12,463 nucleotides of DNA. Origin: an uncultured Collinsella sp. (GTDB taxonomy: Bacteria > Actinomycetota > Coriobacteriia > Coriobacteriales > Coriobacteriaceae). Location of the stretch: assembly GCA_900555355.1 (NCBI GenBank), contig USKV01000020.1, positions 1-12,463 on the forward strand. The letters run 5' to 3'. Made by a program: the position numbers and the translations under genes. Positions 1 through 9,949 of the stretch are shown one piece after another (the first letter of the stretch is position 1; each line of letters opens with the position of its first letter). Under the pieces are notes generated by a model that saw only the letters and a list, made by a program, of their open reading frames with translations, was not told the DNA's origin and did no database searches.

Positions 1-817
1 CCTCGCGCGCTCGGTCGAACATATCGTCCGTAAACACGCGCAAGCTGCCCGCAACATGGGCCTCCCCCGCCACCGCATTGCAGACGGTGCCTGCCTGCAG
101 CAGGCCGAACTTACCAATGCAGGGCTCGTCGGCACCCAGCTCATCCATGAGCTCGCGCTCGGAAACTAAGAACTTGGCCGCCGCCAGCGCGGCATCGTGC
201 GATTCGTTTACGGGAACGCCGTAGGTCTTGGCGATATGGATGCTCGTGCCATGGATATGAATGTGCGTCTCGCTTGAGCGCGCCAGCAGCGGACCGGAAC
301 AGCTCGCCAACGTGCCGGCGGGCAGATCGGGCCACACATGGAAGCCGAAGATGCGATCCGCCCCGTAGCGCTCGAACACGCCGCTCTCGCACACCGTCTT
401 GGCACCACCAGTCGTCTCCTCGGCCGGCTGAAACACAAAAAGTACGTTGCGCTTGATGGCGCCCGGCTGCTCACGAATCGTGCGATCGACATACGTCGCG
501 GCGGCAAGCACCATGGCCATGTGACCGTCGTGACCGCACGCATGCATCTTACCGGGATGCGTCGAGGCAAAGGCCGCGCCCGTTGCCTCCGCGATGGGCA
601 GGGCGTCCATGTCGGCGCGAATCGCCGTGGCATGCGCGGCGCCCGTGCCGGCATCGAAGAAAGCGCAGACGCAGCTGGGGCACGGATGGGTCACCTCGCA
701 GGCGAGCGGAGCGAGCACGCCCTCGATATAGGCAATGGTTTGCGGAAGATCGAAGTCGAGCTCCGGAATGCGATGCAGGTCGCGCCGATAGCGACGAAGT
801 TCTTGGAGCTCGGTCAT
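1..817 (-). CDS. M20 family amidohydrolase / N-acyl-amino-acid deacetylase (partial, C-terminus missing)
   Basis: The frame opens at an ATG (815-817) preceded by AAAGGA with 6 nt spacing, and stays open for 272 codons to the window edge, so roughly the last 100 residues are missing. M20 (IAA-amino acid hydrolase, hippurate hydrolase, N-acetyl-DAP deacetylase) signatures are present: RRDLHRIPEL near residue 12, AIRADMDALPI at 65-75, the metal motif MHACGHDGH at 91-99 (Cys94, His96), QPAEE at 130-134 and GFHVWPDLPAGT at 158-169. The lid-domain GGHAA motif is replaced by TSIHIAK (191-197), with His194 in the expected position. The family are dinuclear-metal cytosolic enzymes that remove acyl groups from N-acyl amino acids. 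It lies divergent from a DAP operon containing dapH, so N-acetyl-L,L-DAP deacetylase is an attractive role, but substrate cannot be read from sequence; hippurate or peptide-derived substrates are equally possible. Family call firm, substrate uncertain. Confidence 0.9.
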   Translation of the reverse strand, partial: MTELQELRRYRRDLHRIPELDFDLPQTIAYIEGVLAPLACEVTHPCPSCVCAFFDAGTGAAHATAIRADMDALPIAEATGAAFASTHPGKMHACGHDGHMAMVLAAATYVDRTIREQPGAIKRNVLFVFQPAEETTGGAKTVCESGVFERYGADRIFGFHVWPDLPAGTLASCSGPLLARSSETHIHIHGTSIHIAKTYGVPVNESHDAALAAAKFLVSERELMDELGADEPCIGKFGLLQAGTVCNAVAGEAHVAGSLRVFTDDMFDRARE

Positions 818-851
818 AAAGGTTCCTTTCATGGGGGGGCATATCCATTCA

Positions 852-863
852 CACAATATTGTG
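852..863. promoter_or_regulatory. 12-bp perfect palindrome, possible operator
   Basis: CACAATATTGTG is a perfect 12-bp palindrome about 35 bp upstream of the M20 start codon. On the minus strand a possible -10 (TATGCT, complement of 891-896) would put a transcription start near 884, so the palindrome would lie about 20-30 nt inside the transcript, a plausible repressor position. No matching -35 box is clear. Its role is an inference from symmetry and position. Confidence 0.3.
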
Positions 864-931
864 ACGCAGGATTGTGGCACCCTTGTTTCTAGCATATCCC
901 TGCATTTTTTAAACGTTATATACGAATACTC

Positions 932-960
932 TTGTTTGGTAAAGTGCAACGTGATAGGGT
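932..960 (+). promoter_or_regulatory. putative promoter of the lysine riboswitch/DAP operon
   Basis: TTGTTT (932-937) is separated by 17 nt from TAGGGT (955-960), a housekeeping-sigma-like arrangement with an actinobacterial-style -10. Transcription would start near 966-968, only a few bases before the first strand of the riboswitch aptamer at 972. That placement is the main support, because the -35 and -10 matches are only moderate. Confidence 0.55.
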
Positions 961-971
961 CTTTACCACTT

Positions 972-1128
972 GATAGAGGCGCGGGCACGAAGAGCCGCGG
1001 GCGAGCCGGCAGGCTTTGACCCCGTGGGGAGGCGAAACCCGCCGAACTGGGTTTTTCGGGCACGAACAGCCTGGTGGGCCTGCGGGAAACACCCGCAGGA
1101 CTGTCTGCAGCAATGCGGGAGCGCTATC
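972..1128 (+). ncRNA. lysine riboswitch (L box) aptamer
   Basis: The region matches the lysine-riboswitch pattern of the Bacillus subtilis lysC leader. P1 is GATAG (972-976) with CTATC (1124-1128), followed by the conserved AGAGGCGC. The core GGGGAGGCG..GCCGAAC (about 1026-1046) parallels GGGGAGCG..GCCGAAG. A perfect hairpin CCTGCGGG-AAACA-CCCGCAGG (1079-1099) fits P4, and CTGCA with a GCAA tetraloop and TGCGG (1105-1118) fits P5. The closing GGGAGCGCTATC corresponds to GGAGGGCTATC. It lies between a likely promoter and lysA, the expected context. Lysine binding should stabilise P1 and lower expression of the downstream operon. The pairings were read by eye, without a covariance-model search. 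Confidence 0.93.
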
Positions 1129-1189
1129 CGGACATTGGGTCCACGCTATGCGGATTCGATGCGCAGATGGCGCCGTCTGGATAGCGAGG
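1122..1189 (+). promoter_or_regulatory. riboswitch expression platform (probably translational)
   Basis: The 3' strand of P1 continues as CGCTATCCGGAC (1122-1133), which can pair with GTCTGGATAGCG (1175-1186) over 12 bp with one G-U. A second CGCTAT lies at 1144-1149; CCACGCTAT (1141-1149) can instead pair with ATAGCGAGG (1181-1189) with one A-A mismatch, covering the GAGG (1186-1189) that precedes the ATG at 1200. A hairpin CAGATG-GCGC-CGTCTG (1164-1179) fits inside the second structure and competes with the first. The simplest reading: without lysine the first pairing leaves the ribosome-binding site open; with lysine P1 holds 1124-1128 and the second pairing hides it. No U-tract follows any hairpin, so intrinsic termination is unlikely. 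Confidence 0.6.
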
Positions 1190-1199
1190 TTTACGGGAC

Positions 1200-3509
1200 A
1201 TGGCATTGACCCCCAACGAGGCATATGCGGCCAAGCAGCCGTTTGTGGACAAGGAGACACTCGAGCATATCGTCAAGCAGTTCCCCACGCCGTTTCATCT
1301 ATACGACGAGGCAGGCATCCGCCGCAACATGCAAGAAGTGCGCGACGCCTTTGCATGGAACCCGGGCTTTAAGGAATACTTTGCCGTCAAGGCCAACCCC
1401 AACCCGGCGCTCATCTCCATTCTCAACGAATACGGCTGCGGCTGCGATTGCTCGAGCTATACCGAGCTTATGATCGCCCGCTCACTGGGTATCACGGGAC
1501 ACGACATCATGTTCTCGTCCAACGACACGCCGGCGGCGGACTTTGCCCTTGCGGATAAACTGGGCGCCATCGTCAACTTTGACGACATCAGCCACATCGA
1601 GTTCTTTGAGCGCGTTGCGGGGCCCATCCCCAAGACGGTCAGCTGCCGCTTTAATCCAGGCGGTCTGTTCCAGCTCTCCAACGGCATCATGGACAACCCG
1701 GGCGACTCCAAATATGGCATGACCACCGAGCAGCTCTTTGAGGCCTTCCGCATACTCAAGGCCAAGGGCGCCGAGAATTTTGGCATCCATGCCTTCCTTG
1801 CCAGTAACACCGTCACTAACGACTACTATCCCAAACTCGCACGCATCCTCTTTAAACTTGCCGTGCGCCTGGAGCGCGAGACCGGCGCACATGTCGCCTT
1901 TATCAATCTGTCCGGCGGCGTCGGTATCCCCTATCTGCCCGAGCAGCAGGCTAACGACATCCACGCCATCGGCGAGGGCGTACACGCAGCCTACGACGAG
2001 ATTCTGGTCCCCGCTGGCATGGGCGATGTGGCCATCTGCACCGAGATGGGTCGCTTTATGATGGGCCCCTACGGCTGCTTGGTCACCAAGGCCATCCACG
2101 AGAAGCAGATCTACAAGGACTATATCGGTGTCGATGCAAGTGCCGTCGATTTGATTCGCCCTGCCATGTATGGCGCCTACCACCACATTACGGTGATGGG
2201 TCAGCCGGACGGTCCCGATAAAACCGCAGCCCCCGTCACGAACACGTACGACATCACGGGCAATCTGTGCGAGAACAATGACAAGTTCGCCATCGACCGC
2301 GAGCTTCCGCATATCGACATGGGCGACCTGCTCGTGATTCACGACACCGGCGCGCATGGCCACTCTATGGGCTACAACTACAACGGCCGCCTGCGCTCCG
2401 CCGAGGTCCTGCTGCGCCCCGATGGCTCGGCAGACCTCATTCGTCGCGCCGAGCGCCCGGGCGATTACTTTGCCACGCTCGACGTGCTGCCGAGCGGCCG
2501 AGAGCTGCTGGCCAAGTCGCGCGCCGAAAGTGCCCGCCGTCGCGCCCAAGACGAGCGCCTGGCCGTCGCCGCCCAATGGAACAAACGCATCCAGGTCGCG
2601 GAAGCGAAGGAGAAGAACATGGACATCCGCAATCTCGAGGGCTCAATCGTCGCCCTTGTTACGCCATTTAAAAAGGACGGCAGTGTCGACTTTGACGCAC
2701 TCGAGCGCCTTATCGATTTCCACCTGCAAAACGGCACCGACGCCATCCTCACCCTGGGCACCACCGGCGAGAGCGCCACGATGACCGATGACGAGGACAA
2801 CTCCGTTGTCGCCGCCGTGGTCAAGCAGGTTGCAGGACGCGTCCCCGTCATTGCCGGCTCGGGCTCCAACTCCACGCAAACCATGCTCACCAAGTCACTC
2901 ACCTACCAGGGCTTGGGCGCCGATGGCCTGCTGCTCATTACCCCCTACTACAACAAGTCCAATGAAGAGGGTATCTATCAGCACTTTAAGACCGTCGCCG
3001 ATGCTGTGGACATCCCCTGCATCCTGTACAACATCCCCGGCCGCTGCGGCTGCGGCATCAGCGAGCGCAACGTAGAGCGCTTGGCCGCGCACCCCAACAT
3101 CATGGGTATTAAGGAAGCCTCGGGCAACGTCGCCTACGCGGCCAAGATTGCCCACCTGCTGTCCGACGACTTCCGCATGTACTCGGGCGAGGACGCGCTC
3201 ACCGTGCCGCTCATGAGCCTGGGCGCCTCGGGCACCATCAGCGTGTGGGCCGACGTTCAGCCGCAGCTCGTGCATGACATGTGCCGCGCCTATCTGGACG
3301 GTGACGTGGCACGTGCCCGCGATATCCAAATTGCCGGTCAGCCGCTCATCAACGCCCTCTTTAGTGAGGTCAATCCCATCCCCGTTAAGGAAGCGCTCGC
3401 TCAGATGGGTATGATCGAGGCAAACTACCGCATGCCGCTATGCCCCATGGCAGACGACACGCGCGCTGCACTTACCGATGCTCTGAAGGGAGCTGGTCTG
3501 CTTGATTAA
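1200..3509 (+). CDS. lysA-dapA: LysA-DapA fusion: DAP decarboxylase joined to 4-hydroxy-tetrahydrodipicolinate synthase
   Basis: One uninterrupted 769-codon frame encodes two cytosolic enzymes. Residues 1 to about 428 are DAP decarboxylase (meso-DAP to lysine + CO2; PLP, fold type III): Lys64 in FAVKANPNP, HAFLASN at 197-203, the glycine loop GGVGIPY at 239-245, EMGR at 282-285 and CENND with Cys357. The sequence resembles the Clostridia-type LysA of about 420 residues. Residues 431-473 form a charged Ala/Arg/Glu/Lys-rich, probably helical linker. Residues 474-769 (296 aa, the normal DapA length) condense pyruvate and aspartate semialdehyde: TTGES at 521-525, TPYYNK at 581-586, Tyr610, Arg615 and Schiff-base Lys638 in GIKEASG. 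The start ATG is preceded by GAGG with 10 nt spacing under riboswitch control. The first and last lysine-branch enzymes would thus be one polypeptide. However, a strong internal Shine-Dalgarno precedes Met474, so free DapA is probably also made. A lost lysA stop codon or a sequencing error are the alternatives. Confidence 0.92.
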   Translation: MALTPNEAYAAKQPFVDKETLEHIVKQFPTPFHLYDEAGIRRNMQEVRDAFAWNPGFKEYFAVKANPNPALISILNEYGCGCDCSSYTELMIARSLGITGHDIMFSSNDTPAADFALADKLGAIVNFDDISHIEFFERVAGPIPKTVSCRFNPGGLFQLSNGIMDNPGDSKYGMTTEQLFEAFRILKAKGAENFGIHAFLASNTVTNDYYPKLARILFKLAVRLERETGAHVAFINLSGGVGIPYLPEQQANDIHAIGEGVHAAYDEILVPAGMGDVAICTEMGRFMMGPYGCLVTKAIHEKQIYKDYIGVDASAVDLIRPAMYGAYHHITVMGQPDGPDKTAAPVTNTYDITGNLCENNDKFAIDRELPHIDMGDLLVIHDTGAHGHSMGYNYNGRLRSAEVLLRPDGSADLIRRAERPGDYFATLDVLPSGRELLAKSRAESARRRAQDERLAVAAQWNKRIQVAEAKEKNMDIRNLEGSIVALVTPFKKDGSVDFDALERLIDFHLQNGTDAILTLGTTGESATMTDDEDNSVVAAVVKQVAGRVPVIAGSGSNSTQTMLTKSLTYQGLGADGLLLITPYYNKSNEEGIYQHFKTVADAVDIPCILYNIPGRCGCGISERNVERLAAHPNIMGIKEASGNVAYAAKIAHLLSDDFRMYSGEDALTVPLMSLGASGTISVWADVQPQLVHDMCRAYLDGDVARARDIQIAGQPLINALFSEVNPIPVKEALAQMGMIEANYRMPLCPMADDTRAALTDALKGAGLLD
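2607..2612 (+). promoter_or_regulatory. internal Shine-Dalgarno for dapA
   Basis: AAGGAG lies 6 nt before the ATG at 2619-2621, inside the coding frame of the linker where it reads Lys-Glu (residues 470-471). Sequence and spacing are near ideal, better than those of the upstream lysA start. This suggests the DapA part can be translated on its own even though no stop codon separates it from LysA. Confidence 0.7.
2619..3509 (+). CDS. dapA: 4-hydroxy-tetrahydrodipicolinate synthase, DapA part of the fusion (internal start)
   Basis: This is the 296-residue product expected from the internal ATG, in the same frame as the upstream LysA. It begins MDIRNLEGSIVALVTPF, aligning with the normal DapA N-terminus, and carries the complete catalytic set: Thr-Thr in GTTGES, the paired tyrosines in TPYYNK, Tyr and Arg in LYNIPGRCG and the Schiff-base lysine in GIKEASG. 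It catalyses the committed step of the DAP pathway and family members are usually tetramers. Compared with E. coli DapA, the allosteric lysine-site residues His53, His56 and Glu84 appear as Asp, Asp and Thr while Asn80 is kept, so lysine feedback on the enzyme may be weak. It is listed separately because the ribosome-binding site supports an independent product; the same codons also form the C-terminal half of the 1200-3509 frame. Confidence 0.75.
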   Translation: MDIRNLEGSIVALVTPFKKDGSVDFDALERLIDFHLQNGTDAILTLGTTGESATMTDDEDNSVVAAVVKQVAGRVPVIAGSGSNSTQTMLTKSLTYQGLGADGLLLITPYYNKSNEEGIYQHFKTVADAVDIPCILYNIPGRCGCGISERNVERLAAHPNIMGIKEASGNVAYAAKIAHLLSDDFRMYSGEDALTVPLMSLGASGTISVWADVQPQLVHDMCRAYLDGDVARARDIQIAGQPLINALFSEVNPIPVKEALAQMGMIEANYRMPLCPMADDTRAALTDALKGAGLLD

Positions 3510-4242
3510 GACTGTCATTATGGGAACGGGCCGCATGGGCTCGCTCATCCGCACTACCGCCGAGGACGTTGTCGACGCCGCCGGTCAGCCCGTTTTTGAT
3601 ATCGTCGCCCAGATCGGTTTTGACCTGTCCGAGCTCGAGAGCGCACCGGCAGCCGACGTCATCATCGACTTCTCGAACGTCGTAACCTTCGATGCCGTTG
3701 TCGCCTATGTCGAGCGCACGGGCACCGCACTCGTTTCCGGCACCACGGGCTATACGCCCGAGCAGATGGACCGCCTGCGCGAGCTGGGTCAGAACGTCCG
3801 CGTCATGCACTCCGGCAATTACTCCATCGGCATCGCAGCCCTGCGCCATCTAGTGGCCCAGGCCACGCGTGAGCTGCCCGGCTTTGACTGTGAGATTGTC
3901 GAGACTCACCACAACCAAAAGGTCGACGCCCCCAGCGGCACCGCCAAGCTGCTGCTCGACGCCGTAGTCGAGGCCGAACCCGAGGCAGGCTACCACCCCG
4001 TCTACGGACGCGAGGGCATGTGCGGCGTGCGCGACTCCAAGGAAATCGGCATGCACTCGCTGCGCGGCGGCACCGTCGCCGGCGTGCACGAGGTAAGCTT
4101 CTTTGGCCAGGACGAGGAGGTCACACTCACACACCGTGCCACGAGCCGTCAGATCTTTGTCAACGGCGCCTTGGCAACCGCGCAGAAGCTCGTCACCCGC
4201 GAACCCGGCTTCTATACGTTCGACCAGGTCATGTTTGCCTAA
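3502..4242 (+). CDS. dapB: 4-hydroxy-tetrahydrodipicolinate reductase DapB
   Basis: The 246-residue enzyme reduces the DapA product to tetrahydrodipicolinate with NAD(P)H. The N-terminal Rossmann motif MGTGRMG is at residues 7-13, SGTTGYTPEQ at 79-88, and the family signature ETHHNQKVDAPSGTA at 134-148 contains the catalytic His-His pair and Lys140. Length and C-terminus (GALATAQKLV..PGFYTFDQVMF) are normal. The start is chosen as TTG at 3502 because IKTVIMGTGRMG fits the family N-terminus and AAGGGAG lies 9 nt upstream. TTG is a weak start codon and overlaps the dapA stop (TTGATTAA, 8 nt shared), which suggests translational coupling to dapA. Third gene function of the riboswitch-controlled operon. 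Confidence 0.97.
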   Translation: MIKTVIMGTGRMGSLIRTTAEDVVDAAGQPVFDIVAQIGFDLSELESAPAADVIIDFSNVVTFDAVVAYVERTGTALVSGTTGYTPEQMDRLRELGQNVRVMHSGNYSIGIAALRHLVAQATRELPGFDCEIVETHHNQKVDAPSGTAKLLLDAVVEAEPEAGYHPVYGREGMCGVRDSKEIGMHSLRGGTVAGVHEVSFFGQDEEVTLTHRATSRQIFVNGALATAQKLVTREPGFYTFDQVMFA

Positions 4243-4281
4243 CCAGGTATCAACCGAATCCACCCAAAGGAGAGATAGCAA

Positions 4282-5001
4282 ATGAGCAACGCAGCCGAGA
4301 TGGATGCACAGGAGATTATCAACTACATCGCCACCGCGCCTAAAAAGACGCCCGTCAAGCTGCATGTGCGCGAGAAGCCCGGCATGAAGGTTGCCTGGGG
4401 CGACGCACATGTCTACGGCGGCCGTCGTGGCAAGACCGTCTTTGGCGACTGGGATGAGCTCAAGGCCATCCTCGATGCCAATGCCGACTCCATCGACTAC
4501 TACGATGTGGAGAACGACTGTCGCAACTCCGCCGTCCCCATGCTCGACCTTAAGGGCATCAATGCCCGCATCGAGCCGGGCGCGATCATCCGCGACCGCG
4601 TCGAGATCGGCGACCGCGCCGTCATCATGATGGGCGCCATCATCAACATCGGCTCCGTCATTGGCGAAGGCTCCATGATCGACATGGGCGCCGTGCTAGG
4701 CGGCCGCGCCACCGTGGGTAAGAACTGCCACATCGGCGCCGGCACCGTGTTGGCAGGCGTCGTTGAGCCCGCGAGCGCCACGCCTGTCATCATCGAGGAC
4801 GATGTCATGATTGGCGCCAACGCCGTGGTCCTGGAGGGCGTGCGCGTGGGCAAGGGCGCCGTCGTGGCTGCCGGTGCCGTATGCGTCGAGGACGTCCCCG
4901 CCGGCGCCGTCGTGGCCGGTGTCCCCGCCCGCGTCATCAAGATGCGCGATGAGAAGACCGACAGCAAGACCGGTCTCGAAGAGGGCTTACGTCAACTTTA
5001 A
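4282..5001 (+). CDS. dapH: tetrahydrodipicolinate N-acetyltransferase DapH
   Basis: The 239-residue protein transfers acetyl from acetyl-CoA to the open form of tetrahydrodipicolinate. It closely follows Bacillus DapH along its length: [10 protein letters not shown] at the N-terminus, [16 protein letters not shown] near residues 76-91, [10 protein letters not shown], then left-handed beta-helix hexapeptide repeats ([59 protein letters not shown]) and the EGLRQL C-terminus. Its similarity to DapH rather than to succinyl-transferring DapD indicates the acetylase variant of the pathway. AAAGGAG lies 9 nt before the ATG and the gene starts 39 nt after dapB. It ends the operon, followed by terminators. 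The products need an N-acetyl-L,L-DAP aminotransferase and a deacetylase, for which the window has candidates at 8687-9850 and 1-817. Confidence 0.97.
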
Positions 5002-5006
5002 TAGTT

Positions 5007-5031
5007 ACGCGGTTTTGACAAACCGCGTTTT
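5007..5031 (+). terminator. possible intrinsic terminator after dapH
   Basis: ACGCGGTTT (5007-5015), loop TGAC and AAACCGCGT (5020-5028) form a perfect 9-bp stem ending in TTTT. It starts 6 nt after the dapH stop. The U-tract is short, so it is probably the weaker of two terminators here. Confidence 0.65.
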
Positions 5032-5082
5032 CGCTGACGTATGCCCAACCTGCGGCGCAATGTCAGCAACCAAGCCGAAAAC

Positions 5083-5123
5083 AAAAAAGGCCGAAGTCCC
5101 GAAGGGCTTCGGCCTTTGTTTTT
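5083..5123. terminator. bidirectional intrinsic terminator between dapH and the convergent NA37 gene
   Basis: AAAGGCCGAAG (5086-5096) pairs with CTTCGGCCTTT (5107-5117), and the stem continues through CCC-GAA-GGG at its tip. An A-run (5083-5088) on the left and a T-rich tract (TTTGTTTTT, 5115-5123) on the right give U-tracts in both directions. It lies between convergent genes, as expected for a shared terminator. Confidence 0.92.
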
Positions 5124-5143: not shown

Positions 5144-6148
5144 TTATCGATTCTCAATACTTCCGATGTTCTTGAGCTCGATAGAGATGAGGCCGTTGGG
5201 TTCGTTGACGAACTCGATGTACTCGGAGTTCGAACCCATCTCGGCCGGGAAGCTGATCTCGATACCCGTGTCGGTACGGATCTTATGATTGCGCACCGCC
5301 GCGCGTTCGACCTGCTTGCGCTCCACGGGCACACGCTCAGGCACCTTCTCCTCGGTCAGTGCCGCGCGCACGCTCTCCTTGATAACCGGTTCGTCCTCAA
5401 AGACCTCATCGACGATATCCCAAGGCGGCAGCTCCTCGTCATCCTCAACCTTCTCGGCAACGGCGGCTTTGACCTTAGCGAGCGCTACAGCCGTGTTGGC
5501 GCCGTGCTCCTCGGCGACTTCCTCGACCACACGCGTCACGGTGTCGATGACCTCCTTGCCTGATACGCCCGTTTCGCACTGCAGCAGGCCATCGGGGATA
5601 AGCATACGGTCCTCGCCGGCAATCTTGCGCTTCTTGTCCACGTAGCCGATCTCCATGGTACTCGCGCGCACAATGGCATAGCTCGGCACCTTTTGCGAGG
5701 GGTTCGGCAGGATGGCGTAGTGGCGCGCGATGTCGTTGCGCACCTCCCCCTCCTCGCGGCCCACTTCGTGCATAAAAGCCTGCTTGGAGCCCAGCAGCAT
5801 CACGGCAAACCAGCGGGCATCCTCATCGTCGTCAAAGTCCGCCACAAGCACGTCGGTGGACTCGGCTTTCTCAGCCTTGGTGAGTTCGGAAGAGATGAAC
5901 TCCGCAATCTGCTGAGACAGGTCCACGAACTCACGCTCACCAAAGAAATAGCCCTTGAGCTCGCCGCCGAATGCGGAGTTCTCGGCAAACGTGGCGCGTT
6001 TATTGTCGGCCGAGGTGCGTGCGCGGCGCAGATGCGTGGTCACGAAGTTGCGCACGGTACGGCTCTCGATATCGAGCTCTCGCTGGCTCATGACGTTGAC
6101 GGCAGAGTCAAAGTCCAGGATATGCAGAATCGCGTGATTGATTTTCAT
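5144..6148 (-). CDS. nucleoid-associated protein, NA37/NdpA family
   Basis: The 334-residue product begins MKINHAILHILDF, typical of the 37-kDa nucleoid-associated family (NdpA/YejK). Further family-like blocks are the arginine-rich HLRRARTSADNKRA (about 36-49), DLSQQIAEFI, VLVADFDDDEDARWFAVMLLGSKQAFMHEV and VRNDIARHYAILPNPSQKV. Members bind the nucleoid; their molecular role is poorly defined. The C-terminal third is rich in Glu and Lys. The start is taken as the ATG at 6148; an in-frame ATG at 6157 would add MPY, but 6148 has GGAA upstream at usable distance and gives the family N-terminus. It converges on the DAP operon and shares its terminator. A minus-strand -10-like TATACT (complement of 6187-6192) lies about 40 nt upstream, without a clear -35. 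Family assignment is confident, cellular role unknown. Confidence 0.88.
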   Translation of the reverse strand: MKINHAILHILDFDSAVNVMSQRELDIESRTVRNFVTTHLRRARTSADNKRATFAENSAFGGELKGYFFGEREFVDLSQQIAEFISSELTKAEKAESTDVLVADFDDDEDARWFAVMLLGSKQAFMHEVGREEGEVRNDIARHYAILPNPSQKVPSYAIVRASTMEIGYVDKKRKIAGEDRMLIPDGLLQCETGVSGKEVIDTVTRVVEEVAEEHGANTAVALAKVKAAVAEKVEDDEELPPWDIVDEVFEDEPVIKESVRAALTEEKVPERVPVERKQVERAAVRNHKIRTDTGIEISFPAEMGSNSEYIEFVNEPNGLISIELKNIGSIENR

Positions 6149-6225
6149 ATACGGCATTCCGTTCTAGATCGATTTCGGCACGAACCAGTATAGCGGTCGA
6201 GCCTGCCCCAGGTGCATCGAAGATC

Positions 6226-6256
6226 GGCGCATCGGGGACAGGTTGCTTTGCGCCAA
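6226..6256. repeat. 31-nt dyad repeat, copy A (3' side of the DUF2974 gene)
   Basis: GGCGCA (6226-6231) and TGCGCC (6249-6254) bracket a 17-nt centre containing GGGG.CAGGTT.CTT. The unit matches 7439-7469 at 26 of 31 positions by eye. It ends 4 nt from the stop codon of the DUF2974 gene. No U-tract follows on either strand, so it is not a standard terminator. Confidence 0.75.
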
Positions 6257-6259
6257 TGG

Positions 6260-7420
6260 TTAGCGCAGGAGCTCGGACTGCCAAGCCTCGAGCTGTTCTG
6301 CCAAACTCTTGCCGGCAGCGGGCATGTCGATCTGAGGGCGTTTGGGCAGCAATGCGCATTTAAGGATTGCCACGATGGTCTGCGAGACAAAGCGTCGCGT
6401 ATCCTTGTCAAAGCCTTGCGCAGCCTGGAGCATCACGGGCAGGCTCTCGCGCAGATTCCCAGCGATATCCGCAAACCGCTCAGCACCCGTAGCCTCAAAC
6501 ACGGAGAACAACGCATCTACAAAACGCTCGCGCTCGCTAGGCGACACTGTAAGCAGCATCTCGCGAATGGAGCCATCAACGTATCGAGCACCGGCGGACA
6601 GGCGCTCACAGTATACGAAGTCGCAGCCATCAACCACCCAGCTAAAGGGATTGTGCTGCAGCAGGCTGAACTCGGCGCTCTCAACGATGGCATAGTCCTC
6701 TTGTGTCTCGAACATCATGCCGAAGATCGACGACCGAGGTAGCGTCTTGTCGATTCGACCGGAAAGATCGGCAAAGGCGTTGCCGTTCAGAAACTCCTCG
6801 ACGAACCCTGGACCATCATGGGAATACGCCCGTTCGATTCGTTCACGGGCAACATCGGAGCACATCGCTGCACCGTACACCGCAAGGTTTCCACCCTTGG
6901 AATGACCCCCGCACAAAAGCGGCCCGCCAATCGCATCCGCCGCCTCGTCCACATAACGTGCCGCGGATTCCTGGGCCGGCACAGGACACCGGAACGCCAT
7001 GTTAAAGTCCTCTTTCCAGCCCACAATCGTGCTGTCGGTCCCCCGGAAGGAAAGATAACTAAACCCCGCCGGAAACCGGAACGCCATGGCTGCAAACTGC
7101 TCTGTCGCCACCACATCGCTCACGGCACGATAGCCGCAAACGTTCACGCCACGGTAGCGAGGGCTTGCCGCCACGGCCTCCAGCAAGGCCCTGCTCCCCT
7201 CTGGGTTCCACAAGTCGTCAATCATGTCCCGGTAGCACTCGGCACGCAGCAGCTCGCGTACGTCTAGGCCCTGCCAGTTCGTCAGCTCCGCCATATCACC
7301 CGGCAAACGCAAATAGGACAACCACGCAAAGACGAGGCTATCCACCGCGCAGAACGGCCGCTCCTCAAACGGATCAAACGCCGTCTGGGCATAGGTCAAA
7401 AAATTAGGCGAATCCGACAT
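6260..7420 (-). CDS. DUF2974 (Mbeg1-like) alpha/beta-hydrolase-fold protein
   Basis: The 386-residue protein has the DUF2974/Mbeg1-like pattern: an N-terminal block around DSLVFAWLSYL (27-37), a lipase-class-3-like FRGTDSTIVGWKEDFN (125-140), the nucleophile elbow CGGHSKGGNLA (170-180) with Ser174, and SHDGPGF (200-206), which may supply the acid. The rest, ending RPQIDMPAAGKSLAEQLEAW, carries no motif I recognise. No signal peptide or membrane span is apparent, so it is probably cytosolic. The substrate is unknown; lipase or esterase activity is an inference from motifs. GGGAGG lies just before the ATG at 7418-7420. The gene sits between the ldh terminator and the NA37 gene, all on the same strand, and is bracketed by two copies of a 31-nt dyad repeat. 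Confidence 0.9.
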   Translation of the reverse strand: MSDSPNFLTYAQTAFDPFEERPFCAVDSLVFAWLSYLRLPGDMAELTNWQGLDVRELLRAECYRDMIDDLWNPEGSRALLEAVAASPRYRGVNVCGYRAVSDVVATEQFAAMAFRFPAGFSYLSFRGTDSTIVGWKEDFNMAFRCPVPAQESAARYVDEAADAIGGPLLCGGHSKGGNLAVYGAAMCSDVARERIERAYSHDGPGFVEEFLNGNAFADLSGRIDKTLPRSSIFGMMFETQEDYAIVESAEFSLLQHNPFSWVVDGCDFVYCERLSAGARYVDGSIREMLLTVSPSERERFVDALFSVFEATGAERFADIAGNLRESLPVMLQAAQGFDKDTRRFVSQTIVAILKCALLPKRPQIDMPAAGKSLAEQLEAWQSELLR

Positions 7421-8686: not shown

Positions 8687-9850
8687 CTAATACAGGCCCG
8701 CCTCGCGAATGGCCTCGACAGCCAAAGCGATCTGGTCGGGCGGTAAGACCAGTGCCATACGCACGTGCCCCTCGCCCGAAGGACCAAAGCTCGCGCCCGG
8801 CGTCACCACAACGCCGGCCTTCTCCATGAGCTCCTCGCAAAACGCCATGGAATCGGTGCGACCACCGGGAAGCTTGGCCCACACAAACATAGAGCCATGC
8901 GCGTTGGGACGCTCCCAGCCCAGGCCCTCAAGACCGTCGCACAGGGCATCGCGGCGCTCCTGGTACTTCAGACGCTGCGCCTCGACCTCATCGCGCGGAC
9001 CGTTCAGGCAGGCGATGGCAGCCTTCTGGATCGGGAAGAACATACCAAAGTCGATCTGGCCGCGCAGCTTGGCAAAGGCCGAGACCACATCCTCGCGACC
9101 GACCAAAAAGCCGATGCGGGCACCGGTGACGTTAAACGACTTAGAGAGCGAGAAGAACTCCACGCCCACCTCAAGCGCACCGGGATACTGCAAGAAGCTG
9201 CCGCCGGGCTCGCCGTCAAACACGATGTCGGAGTACGCGTTGTCATGAACGATCAACAGATCATGCTCGCGGGCAAAGGCGATAATCTCCTCGTAGACCT
9301 CGGGCGTGCCCACCGAGCCCACCGGGTTGGCGGGCAGCGACACGATCATGTACTTGGCACGGTCGGCCACCTCGGGATCGATGCCCGCCACATAGGGCAG
9401 GTAATTATGCTCGGCAACCAGCGGATAGTATTCGAGCTTGGCATCGGCAATCTTGGCACCCGCCTCAAAGACCGGGTAGCACGGATCGGGAACCAAAATG
9501 GTGTCACCCGGATCGAGCAGGGCCAGGCCCAAATGGCCCACGCCCTCCTGCGTGCCGTTGCACGACTGCACCATAGACGGCGTAATGCCCGAAACGCCAA
9601 AGCGACGCTCATAGTAATCGCACACGGCCTGCTTGAGTTCGGGCAGGTCGCGCAGGGCATACTTCCACATCTCGGGATCTTGGGCTGCCTGCGTGAGTGC
9701 TTCGACCACGTGGTCGTACGGCTTAAAGTCGGGCGTGCCCACGCTCATGTTGTAAATGGTCTTGCCCTGAGCCTTCAGCGCGAGAAGCTTGTTGTTGAGC
9801 GAGGCGAAGACCTCCGCGCCAAAGCGGTCGAGACGCTGCGATGCCTGCAT
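8687..9850 (-). CDS. PLP-dependent aminotransferase, class I/II (LL-DAP-aminotransferase-like)
   Basis: The 387-residue fold-type-I enzyme starts at the ATG at 9848-9850 (MQASQRLDRFGAEVF) with AAAGGTGG upstream; a longer frame to 9940 would run through the terminator hairpin and is rejected. Motifs: NMSVGTPDFKP (34-44), CNGTQEGVGHLGLALLDPGD (97-116), PDPCYPVFEAGA (121-132), Asn175 in LPANPVG, HDNAYSDIVFDG (202-213), the Schiff-base Lys237 in SLSKSFNVTGARIGF and Arg364 in GHVRMAL. It resembles clostridial enzymes often named LL-DAP aminotransferase. Because the organism has dapH, a true DapL making LL-DAP directly would be redundant; a role as N-acetyl-L,L-DAP aminotransferase (the step PatA performs in Bacillus) is possible, as is alanine or aromatic transamination. 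The neighbours nadE and ldh do not indicate the substrate. Family firm, substrate open. Confidence 0.92.
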   Translation of the reverse strand: MQASQRLDRFGAEVFASLNNKLLALKAQGKTIYNMSVGTPDFKPYDHVVEALTQAAQDPEMWKYALRDLPELKQAVCDYYERRFGVSGITPSMVQSCNGTQEGVGHLGLALLDPGDTILVPDPCYPVFEAGAKIADAKLEYYPLVAEHNYLPYVAGIDPEVADRAKYMIVSLPANPVGSVGTPEVYEEIIAFAREHDLLIVHDNAYSDIVFDGEPGGSFLQYPGALEVGVEFFSLSKSFNVTGARIGFLVGREDVVSAFAKLRGQIDFGMFFPIQKAAIACLNGPRDEVEAQRLKYQERRDALCDGLEGLGWERPNAHGSMFVWAKLPGGRTDSMAFCEELMEKAGVVVTPGASFGPSGEGHVRMALVLPPDQIALAVEAIREAGLY

Positions 9851-9869
9851 GGTGCCACCTTTCGATATG

Positions 9870-9900
9870 AAAAACGCGGCGCTCAGACAAGAGCGCCGCG
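9870..9900 (-). terminator. terminator-like hairpin between nadE and the aminotransferase
   Basis: CGCGGCGCTC (9875-9884), loop AGACAA and GAGCGCCGCG (9891-9900) form a perfect 10-bp GC-rich stem followed on the minus strand by TTTTT (complement of 9870-9874). It is a textbook intrinsic terminator for nadE, but it ends only 20 nt upstream of the aminotransferase ATG, close to its ribosome-binding site, so it may also act as an attenuator for that gene. Confidence 0.85.
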
Positions 9901-9902
9901 CG

Positions 9903-9949
9903 ATACGGGCCATCAGATTGCAAAAGTGTAACGCTTGCAACCCCCGTAT
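9903..9949 (-). promoter_or_regulatory. promoter/leader region of the aminotransferase with repeated TTGCAA boxes
   Basis: This short gap after the nadE stop holds two palindromic TTGCAA boxes (9918-9923 and 9935-9940). ATACGGG (9903-9909) and CCCGTAT (9943-9949) form a 7-bp inverted repeat enclosing them. On the minus strand TTGCAA, 17 nt and TCTGAT could serve as -35 and -10, with the start just before the terminator-like hairpin. The promoter call is weak; the repeats are plain in the sequence. Confidence 0.35.

Follow-up and report, generated by a model that had tools for sequence, protein, structure and literature searches.

A LysA-DapA fusion gene in one clade of Collinsella, with a probable internal start for free DapA

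The window analyzed here, a stretch of 12,463 nucleotides from an uncultured Collinsella sp., a member of a genus of gut bacteria, contains a gene that encodes LysA and DapA as a single chain. LysA acts last and DapA first in the lysine branch, and their two steps are not consecutive. The LysA-DapA fusion is real and clade-wide; both enzymes are of an ordinary kind and it is their joining which is unusual. The reading that we favor, with a probability of roughly 65%, is that an old riboswitch-controlled operon lost the lysA stop codon and kept the dapA start, such that the gene would encode a predicted 84-kDa bifunctional protein and probably free DapA in addition. The starting point would have been the riboswitch-controlled lysA-dapA-dapB-dapD operon of Coriobacteriales, from which the lysA stop codon would have been lost in the ancestor of one Collinsella clade. 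Ribosomes loading at the lysA start would then read through a linker of 43 residues into dapA, giving the two-enzyme protein, and the former dapA start (AAGGAG, 6 nt, ATG) would stay inside the gene and probably yield a free DapA of 32 kDa.

The fused gene, its two enzymes and the linker

The fusion gene occupies 1200..3509 on the forward strand as a single open frame with zero internal stops, starting with ATG and running for 769 codons to a TAA, with a computed mass of ~83.7 kDa for the product. Pfam profiles recover complete domains on both sides of the junction, i.e., PF02784 (residues 39-288) and PF00278 (290-384) in the LysA part (residues 1-430; 1200..2489, forward strand) and PF00701 (479-763) in the DapA part (2619..3509, forward strand), which is also the probable frame of free DapA (296 aa, computed mass ~31.6 kDa). 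The observation in the initial annotation that no stop separates a complete LysA from a complete DapA is thereby upheld.

The LysA part exceeds the gathering thresholds of both its Pfam models (PF02784, 95.4 bits against 23.4; PF00278, 63.5 bits against 23). When the fusion protein is compared with the NCBIfam models, the score for TIGR01048 (lysA) is 268.9 bits and lies below the curated cut-off of 297.9, even though this is the top-scoring model for the LysA part. Across the best segment this part is 67-73% identical to proteins from records of Lachnospiraceae and other Clostridia, and it aligns over most of its length with the solved DAP decarboxylases 2yxx and 2p3e. K64 in its AVKAN motif, which we take to be the PLP-site lysine of DAP decarboxylases, matches the same motif in both of these, and its LCE and RPA.Y motifs, presumably substrate and cofactor motifs, likewise align with them, the second chain carrying ICE and RPSIY. 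Since the TIGR01048 score falls short of the cut-off, the label LysA rests on homology taken together with context, the latter being provided by the lysine operon and the lysine riboswitch. The DapA part passes the curated cut-off of TIGR00674 (dapA; 206.15 bits) both within the fusion (335 bits) and by itself (339 bits). Alignment to DapA of E. coli K-12 shows that K161, which we assume to be the Schiff-base lysine, and T44, T45, Y107, Y133 and R138, which we assume to be catalytic, are all kept.

Between the two enzymes lies the linker (residues 431-473; 2490..2618, forward strand), which had been described at the outset as a charged segment of 40-odd residues; it has 43 residues, 40% of them D, E, K or R, and is under coding constraint. 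This was assessed in the window and 21 Collinsella genomes with pairwise nucleotide identities of 0.907-0.999. The gene is 2310 nt long and the linker 129 nt long in 22/22 sequences; however, the dapB-dapD spacer of 39 nt is equally constant in length in 21/21 genomes, and the lack of linker indels is therefore weak evidence. In codons 428-472 of the 22 sequences, 15, 4 and 28 sites are variable at positions 1, 2 and 3, respectively. The excess at third positions (28/45 versus 19/90 at first and second positions) has a Fisher p of 6e-6, or 8e-7 without the row L034 considered below, these p values serving as guides given that the sequences are related. The same codons show a pS of 0.22 and a pN of 0.025 (pN/pS 0.11), beside a pS of 0.24 for LysA and 0.21 for DapA and a pN/pS of 0.05 and 0.035, respectively. 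This pattern of variation is that of coding DNA, which argues that the linker is translated and that its reading frame is under purifying selection. An AlphaFold2 model of the whole fusion, built on an alignment of 28 rows that included the probable chimera P0044, has a mean pLDDT of 61.7 and a pTM of 0.53, with 22/30 of the C-terminal ten-residue blocks, which make up the DapA part, below a pLDDT of 60. It draws the linker as a single helix spanning 431-471, at block pLDDT values of 45-59, and the linker may be helical.

Distribution and origin of the fusion

A full-length match to residues 1-769, at 97-98% identity, is present in 21 of 43 Collinsella genomes, and 20 of these 21 are open; the nearest genome compared (G001) shares 36% of sampled words with the window assembly. 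LysA and DapA are encoded by separate genes in 12 of the 43, and the two are adjacent in all 12. In the other 10 neither LysA nor DapA is matched at E <= 1e-80, one of these genomes being only 72% complete; they are possible lysine auxotrophs, and the lysine pathway may therefore be dispensable in the genus. The fusion is also found in 12 named records (L038-L049) labeled Collinsella aerofaciens, Collinsella sp. or uncultured Collinsella, which may duplicate some of the 21 genomes, L042 coinciding in position with G030.

A search across the order covered 395 genomes, 183 of them with a match at E <= 1e-100. Among the matches listed, at least 56 span the two enzymes, and all but the 20 open ones hold at least one stop. 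Fusions reported as two rows were also considered through the listed LysA rows that lack a spanning match; 15 such rows have an open-frame value of at least 700, four of which were known from their junctions and 11 of which were examined separately. The LysA frame ends in a stop in 11/11, and does so before DapA in the 10 with DapA inside the stretch. The separate-gene junctions (25 loci) carry stops together with spacers that differ in length, and at several of them both genes share the same frame. The question posed at the outset, whether the linker and the absence of a stop are conserved across Coriobacteriia, can be answered with yes within one Collinsella clade, where 20/21 genomes keep both, and not beyond it, no further fusion being found among the matches listed for the 395 genomes of the order.

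Two sets of observations lie outside this main distribution. First, G124 and G125, which belong to another family (f5) of the same order, match as closely as relatives from the genus itself: G125 has a match from 4 to 768 at 79%, interrupted by a TAG and a TAA, and G124 matches at 81% for LysA and 73% for DapA. This closeness across families suggests horizontal transfer of the operon. Second, the stretch L139 (G003:C5) contains, as second copies, a decayed dapA at about 2698-3147 on the reverse strand (66% identity to residues 469-636, with one TAG) and a decayed lysA at 6055-6393 on the reverse strand (57% to residues 346-454). These flank a regulator-like ORF of 951 aa near a glycoside-hydrolase-like ORF, both named by eye, and matches resembling the decayed copies also occur in G011:C2.

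In a quick tree built from LysA and DapA together (52 rows), a single branch separates all 24 fused rows from the rest (SH-aLRT 99, computed with no bootstrap), which implies 1 change as against a mean of 17.5 after shuffling. The fusion also occurs in P0012 and P0017, divergent metagenome proteins of 770 aa with identities of 88 and 86%, respectively; their linker is one residue longer and differs in its middle, and the end WNKR[IV].[IV]A..KEKNM is kept in all. A further 14 fusion-like proteins (P0013-P0016 and P0018-P0027) were left out of the counts and trees as probable metagenome chimeras; in each of the 10 inspected by eye (all except P0019 and P0022-P0024) a Lachnospiraceae-like N-terminal LysA precedes an aerofaciens-type remainder, and P0027 is foreign at its end too. 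P0028 (568 aa, with a gap around the junction) and the chimera-like P0124 were left unused, and P0011 (723 aa) lay outside the inspected set. Cluster sizes (P0001, 44,670 members; P0031, 353; P0122, 423) are not taken as allele frequencies, since the clusters may hold contig-end pieces and frame errors.

The alternative offered in the initial annotation, a stop loss in what were originally two genes, agrees well with the adjacent separate genes of the 12 other Collinsella genomes that have both. It also fits the published gene order in Coriobacteriales, which is lysA-dapA-dapB-dapD in Slackia heliotrinireducens and lysA-dapA-dapB in Atopobium parvulum, in both cases as an operon under a lysine riboswitch (PMC5584792). 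Given this separate-gene order under riboswitch control, the fusion is best seen as a stop loss in an old operon.

A stop between residues 430 and 473 in closely related strains had been named as a finding that would refute the fusion, and one such stop does exist. In G059 (row L034 of the tree, where it was counted as fused; stretch L140) LysA occupies 2794-4110 and is ended after 438 aa by a TAG at codon 439, behind which an intact dapA frame of 296 aa (4213-5103) follows its own Shine-Dalgarno, the dapB and dapD frames being intact too. This is the sole case in 21 and it sits inside the fused clade, beside L031; judging by this position, the TAG seems to have arisen secondarily or to stem from faulty assembly. 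Should the TAG be real and DapA be produced, translation of dapA would have to begin independently in G059.

These data bear on an alternative that we regard as possible but rather unlikely, namely that the stop loss was near-neutral, with fused and split states interchanging and the domains working independently either way. The TAG of G059 would be in keeping with such interchange, and so would three metagenome proteins in which contig ends or errors are possible: P0035 stops one residue short of WNKRI in a linker of the P0017 type, and the other two, P0030 and P0031, go out of frame within the linker. A LysA tree, which is a rough guide as it contains eight probable chimeras (P0034, P0036, P0037, P0043, P0044, P0046, P0049 and P0050, all judged by eye to have an aerofaciens start and a foreign end), groups P0035 with P0017 and sets the LysA-only proteins P0038, P0039, P0041 and P0048 near P0012 and P0017. 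These neighbors, which also favor interchange, may be later splits, products of a second gain or pieces of truncated contigs, and consequently a history of one gain that was never lost is not established. Against such interchange stand the open state of all but one of the fused-clade genomes of the genus and the low pN/pS of the linker.

The internal dapA start

The AAGGAG that had been noted 6 nt before the DapA methionine is confirmed at 2607..2612 on the forward strand; the ATG at 2619 is codon 474, the arrangement spans 2607-2621, and both its Shine-Dalgarno and its ATG are invariant in 22/22 sequences. As background we used 400 kb of G001 in 20 stretches, one of them picked to contain the fusion gene. 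In its 272 ORFs of at least 150 aa, the 1502 internal in-frame ATGs include three with AAGGAG upstream at a distance of 4-10 nt, the fusion site among them, and the motif precedes the first start codon in 20/272, a figure that is low, the first start often not being the true one. Judged by these sequence features, free DapA of 32 kDa is probably produced from the internal start. Synonymous conservation at the Shine-Dalgarno is ordinary: its invariant run is 10 nt long, whereas 22 further runs in the fusion gene are longer and one is of equal length, and at conserved Lys and Glu positions the codon itself does not vary at 10/26 and 14/33, respectively. The folding of 2570-2660 is ordinary as well (z 0.11).

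It is unlikely, in our estimate, that only the fused protein is made and that the AAGGAG is a fossil start whose Lys-Glu-Lys codons persist because this end of the linker is needed as protein. Such a reading would account for the amino-acid constraint on the linker, for the similar last 15 residues of the linker in P0012 and P0017, the two divergent fusions, and for the unremarkable synonymous conservation at the motif. However, a motif of this kind is rare before internal in-frame ATGs, and the reading sits poorly with G059, where the dapA frame and its Shine-Dalgarno are kept behind the stop, unless that stop arose recently or reflects faulty assembly. The last alternative, that faulty assembly or sequencing erased a stop, has a negligible probability and can be set aside: probable chimeras do exist among the metagenome proteins, but nothing of the kind was found for the fusion gene itself, which has the same linker length in 21 other assemblies, shows third-position variation and is stop-free in 20 other Collinsella genomes, including the single-contig G001, as well as in the 12 named records, which may duplicate some of these 20 genomes.

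Returning to the favored reading of a fusion with a retained dapA start, DAP decarboxylases are usually dimers and DapA is usually a tetramer, and by analogy the fused and free DapA subunits could co-assemble as mixed tetramers.

Lysine control and known systems

A lysine riboswitch aptamer (RF00168), to which the initial annotation made no reference, is located upstream of the fusion gene at 966..1134 on the forward strand (Rfam 76 bits, gathering threshold 30, E 8.9e-19), and is recovered in 18/20 scanned loci, both fused and separate, L036 and L037 being the misses. In the window it overlaps the 5' end of a divergent ORF (2..1063, reverse strand), as listed from a GTG. Folding places a strong hairpin in the leader directly before the lysA start, and terminator-like sites are absent between 900 and 3700; this combination fits, and suggests, translational control by the riboswitch.

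Downstream, dapB (3502..4242, forward strand; TIGR00036 178.8 bits, cut-off 122) appears to start with a TTG that is preceded by AAGGGAG, and overlaps the end of the fusion gene by 8 nt (3502-3509), the TTG start and the 246 codons recurring in 21/21 related genomes. It is followed by a dapD of the tetrahydrodipicolinate N-acetyltransferase type (4282..5001, forward strand; TIGR03532 343.6 bits, cut-off 231.75). Elsewhere in the window, an aminotransferase at 8690-9940 on the reverse strand is closest to the LL-diaminopimelate aminotransferase models at scores below their cut-offs (best 413 versus 545 bits), and an amidohydrolase at 5-925 on the reverse strand lies above its subfamily cut-off (167 versus 154 bits). 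Together with the acetyl-type DapD these two could complete an acetylase-type DAP route.

The lysine-binding site of E. coli DapA, which we take to comprise S48, A49, H53, H56, N80, E84 and Y106, is not matched in the DapA part of the fusion: S48, A49, N80 and Y106 are kept, whereas the other three residues are substituted (H53D, H56D and E84T). A protein need not carry this site to count as DapA. Direct lysine feedback of the E. coli kind on the DapA part appears unlikely from this comparison, and the three changes point to lysine control that probably acts via the riboswitch and not via the enzyme. A more elaborate and doubtful proposal is that the riboswitch governs the lysA start and the internal dapA start escapes it, in which case lysine would set how much DapA is tethered relative to free and thereby also the kinds of mixed LysA-DapA assemblies.

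Taken together, the riboswitch and the kept internal start make it plausible, and easy to test, that the gene yields two products, and separate-gene relatives as well as one apparently split relative are available as comparisons. Whether the joining of the non-consecutive last and first enzymes of the branch is of consequence is directly testable, as are the keeping of the internal start after fusion and the co-assembly of fused and free subunits. A LysA-DapA fusion is undescribed in the titles and abstract openings of the open-licence literature searched. It resembles the Ask-LysA fusion of Xanthomonadaceae in that LysA is joined to an early enzyme of the lysine pathway; the rationale published for the latter is co-location and faster feedback (PMC1885841), and the changed lysine site of DapA weakens the feedback element of this rationale for the LysA-DapA fusion. 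In Ask-LysA the partner is aspartokinase and the LysA half is C-terminal (positions 500-859 of the profile PRK08961), whereas the fusion described here carries LysA at its N-terminus, joined to DapA. In line with this difference, PRK08961 scores 175 bits against the fusion, with a cut-off of 802, through its LysA half only (500-859), and Pfam detects no aspartokinase domain in the fusion. The lysA-dapA-dapB(-dapD) operon of Coriobacteriales, as given in PMC5584792, has the same gene order and a lysine riboswitch, but lysA and dapA are separate there. Finally, stand-alone DapA and LysA have the same complete domains, the same DapA catalytic residues and the same AVKAN motif as the two parts of the fusion, which here form one chain.
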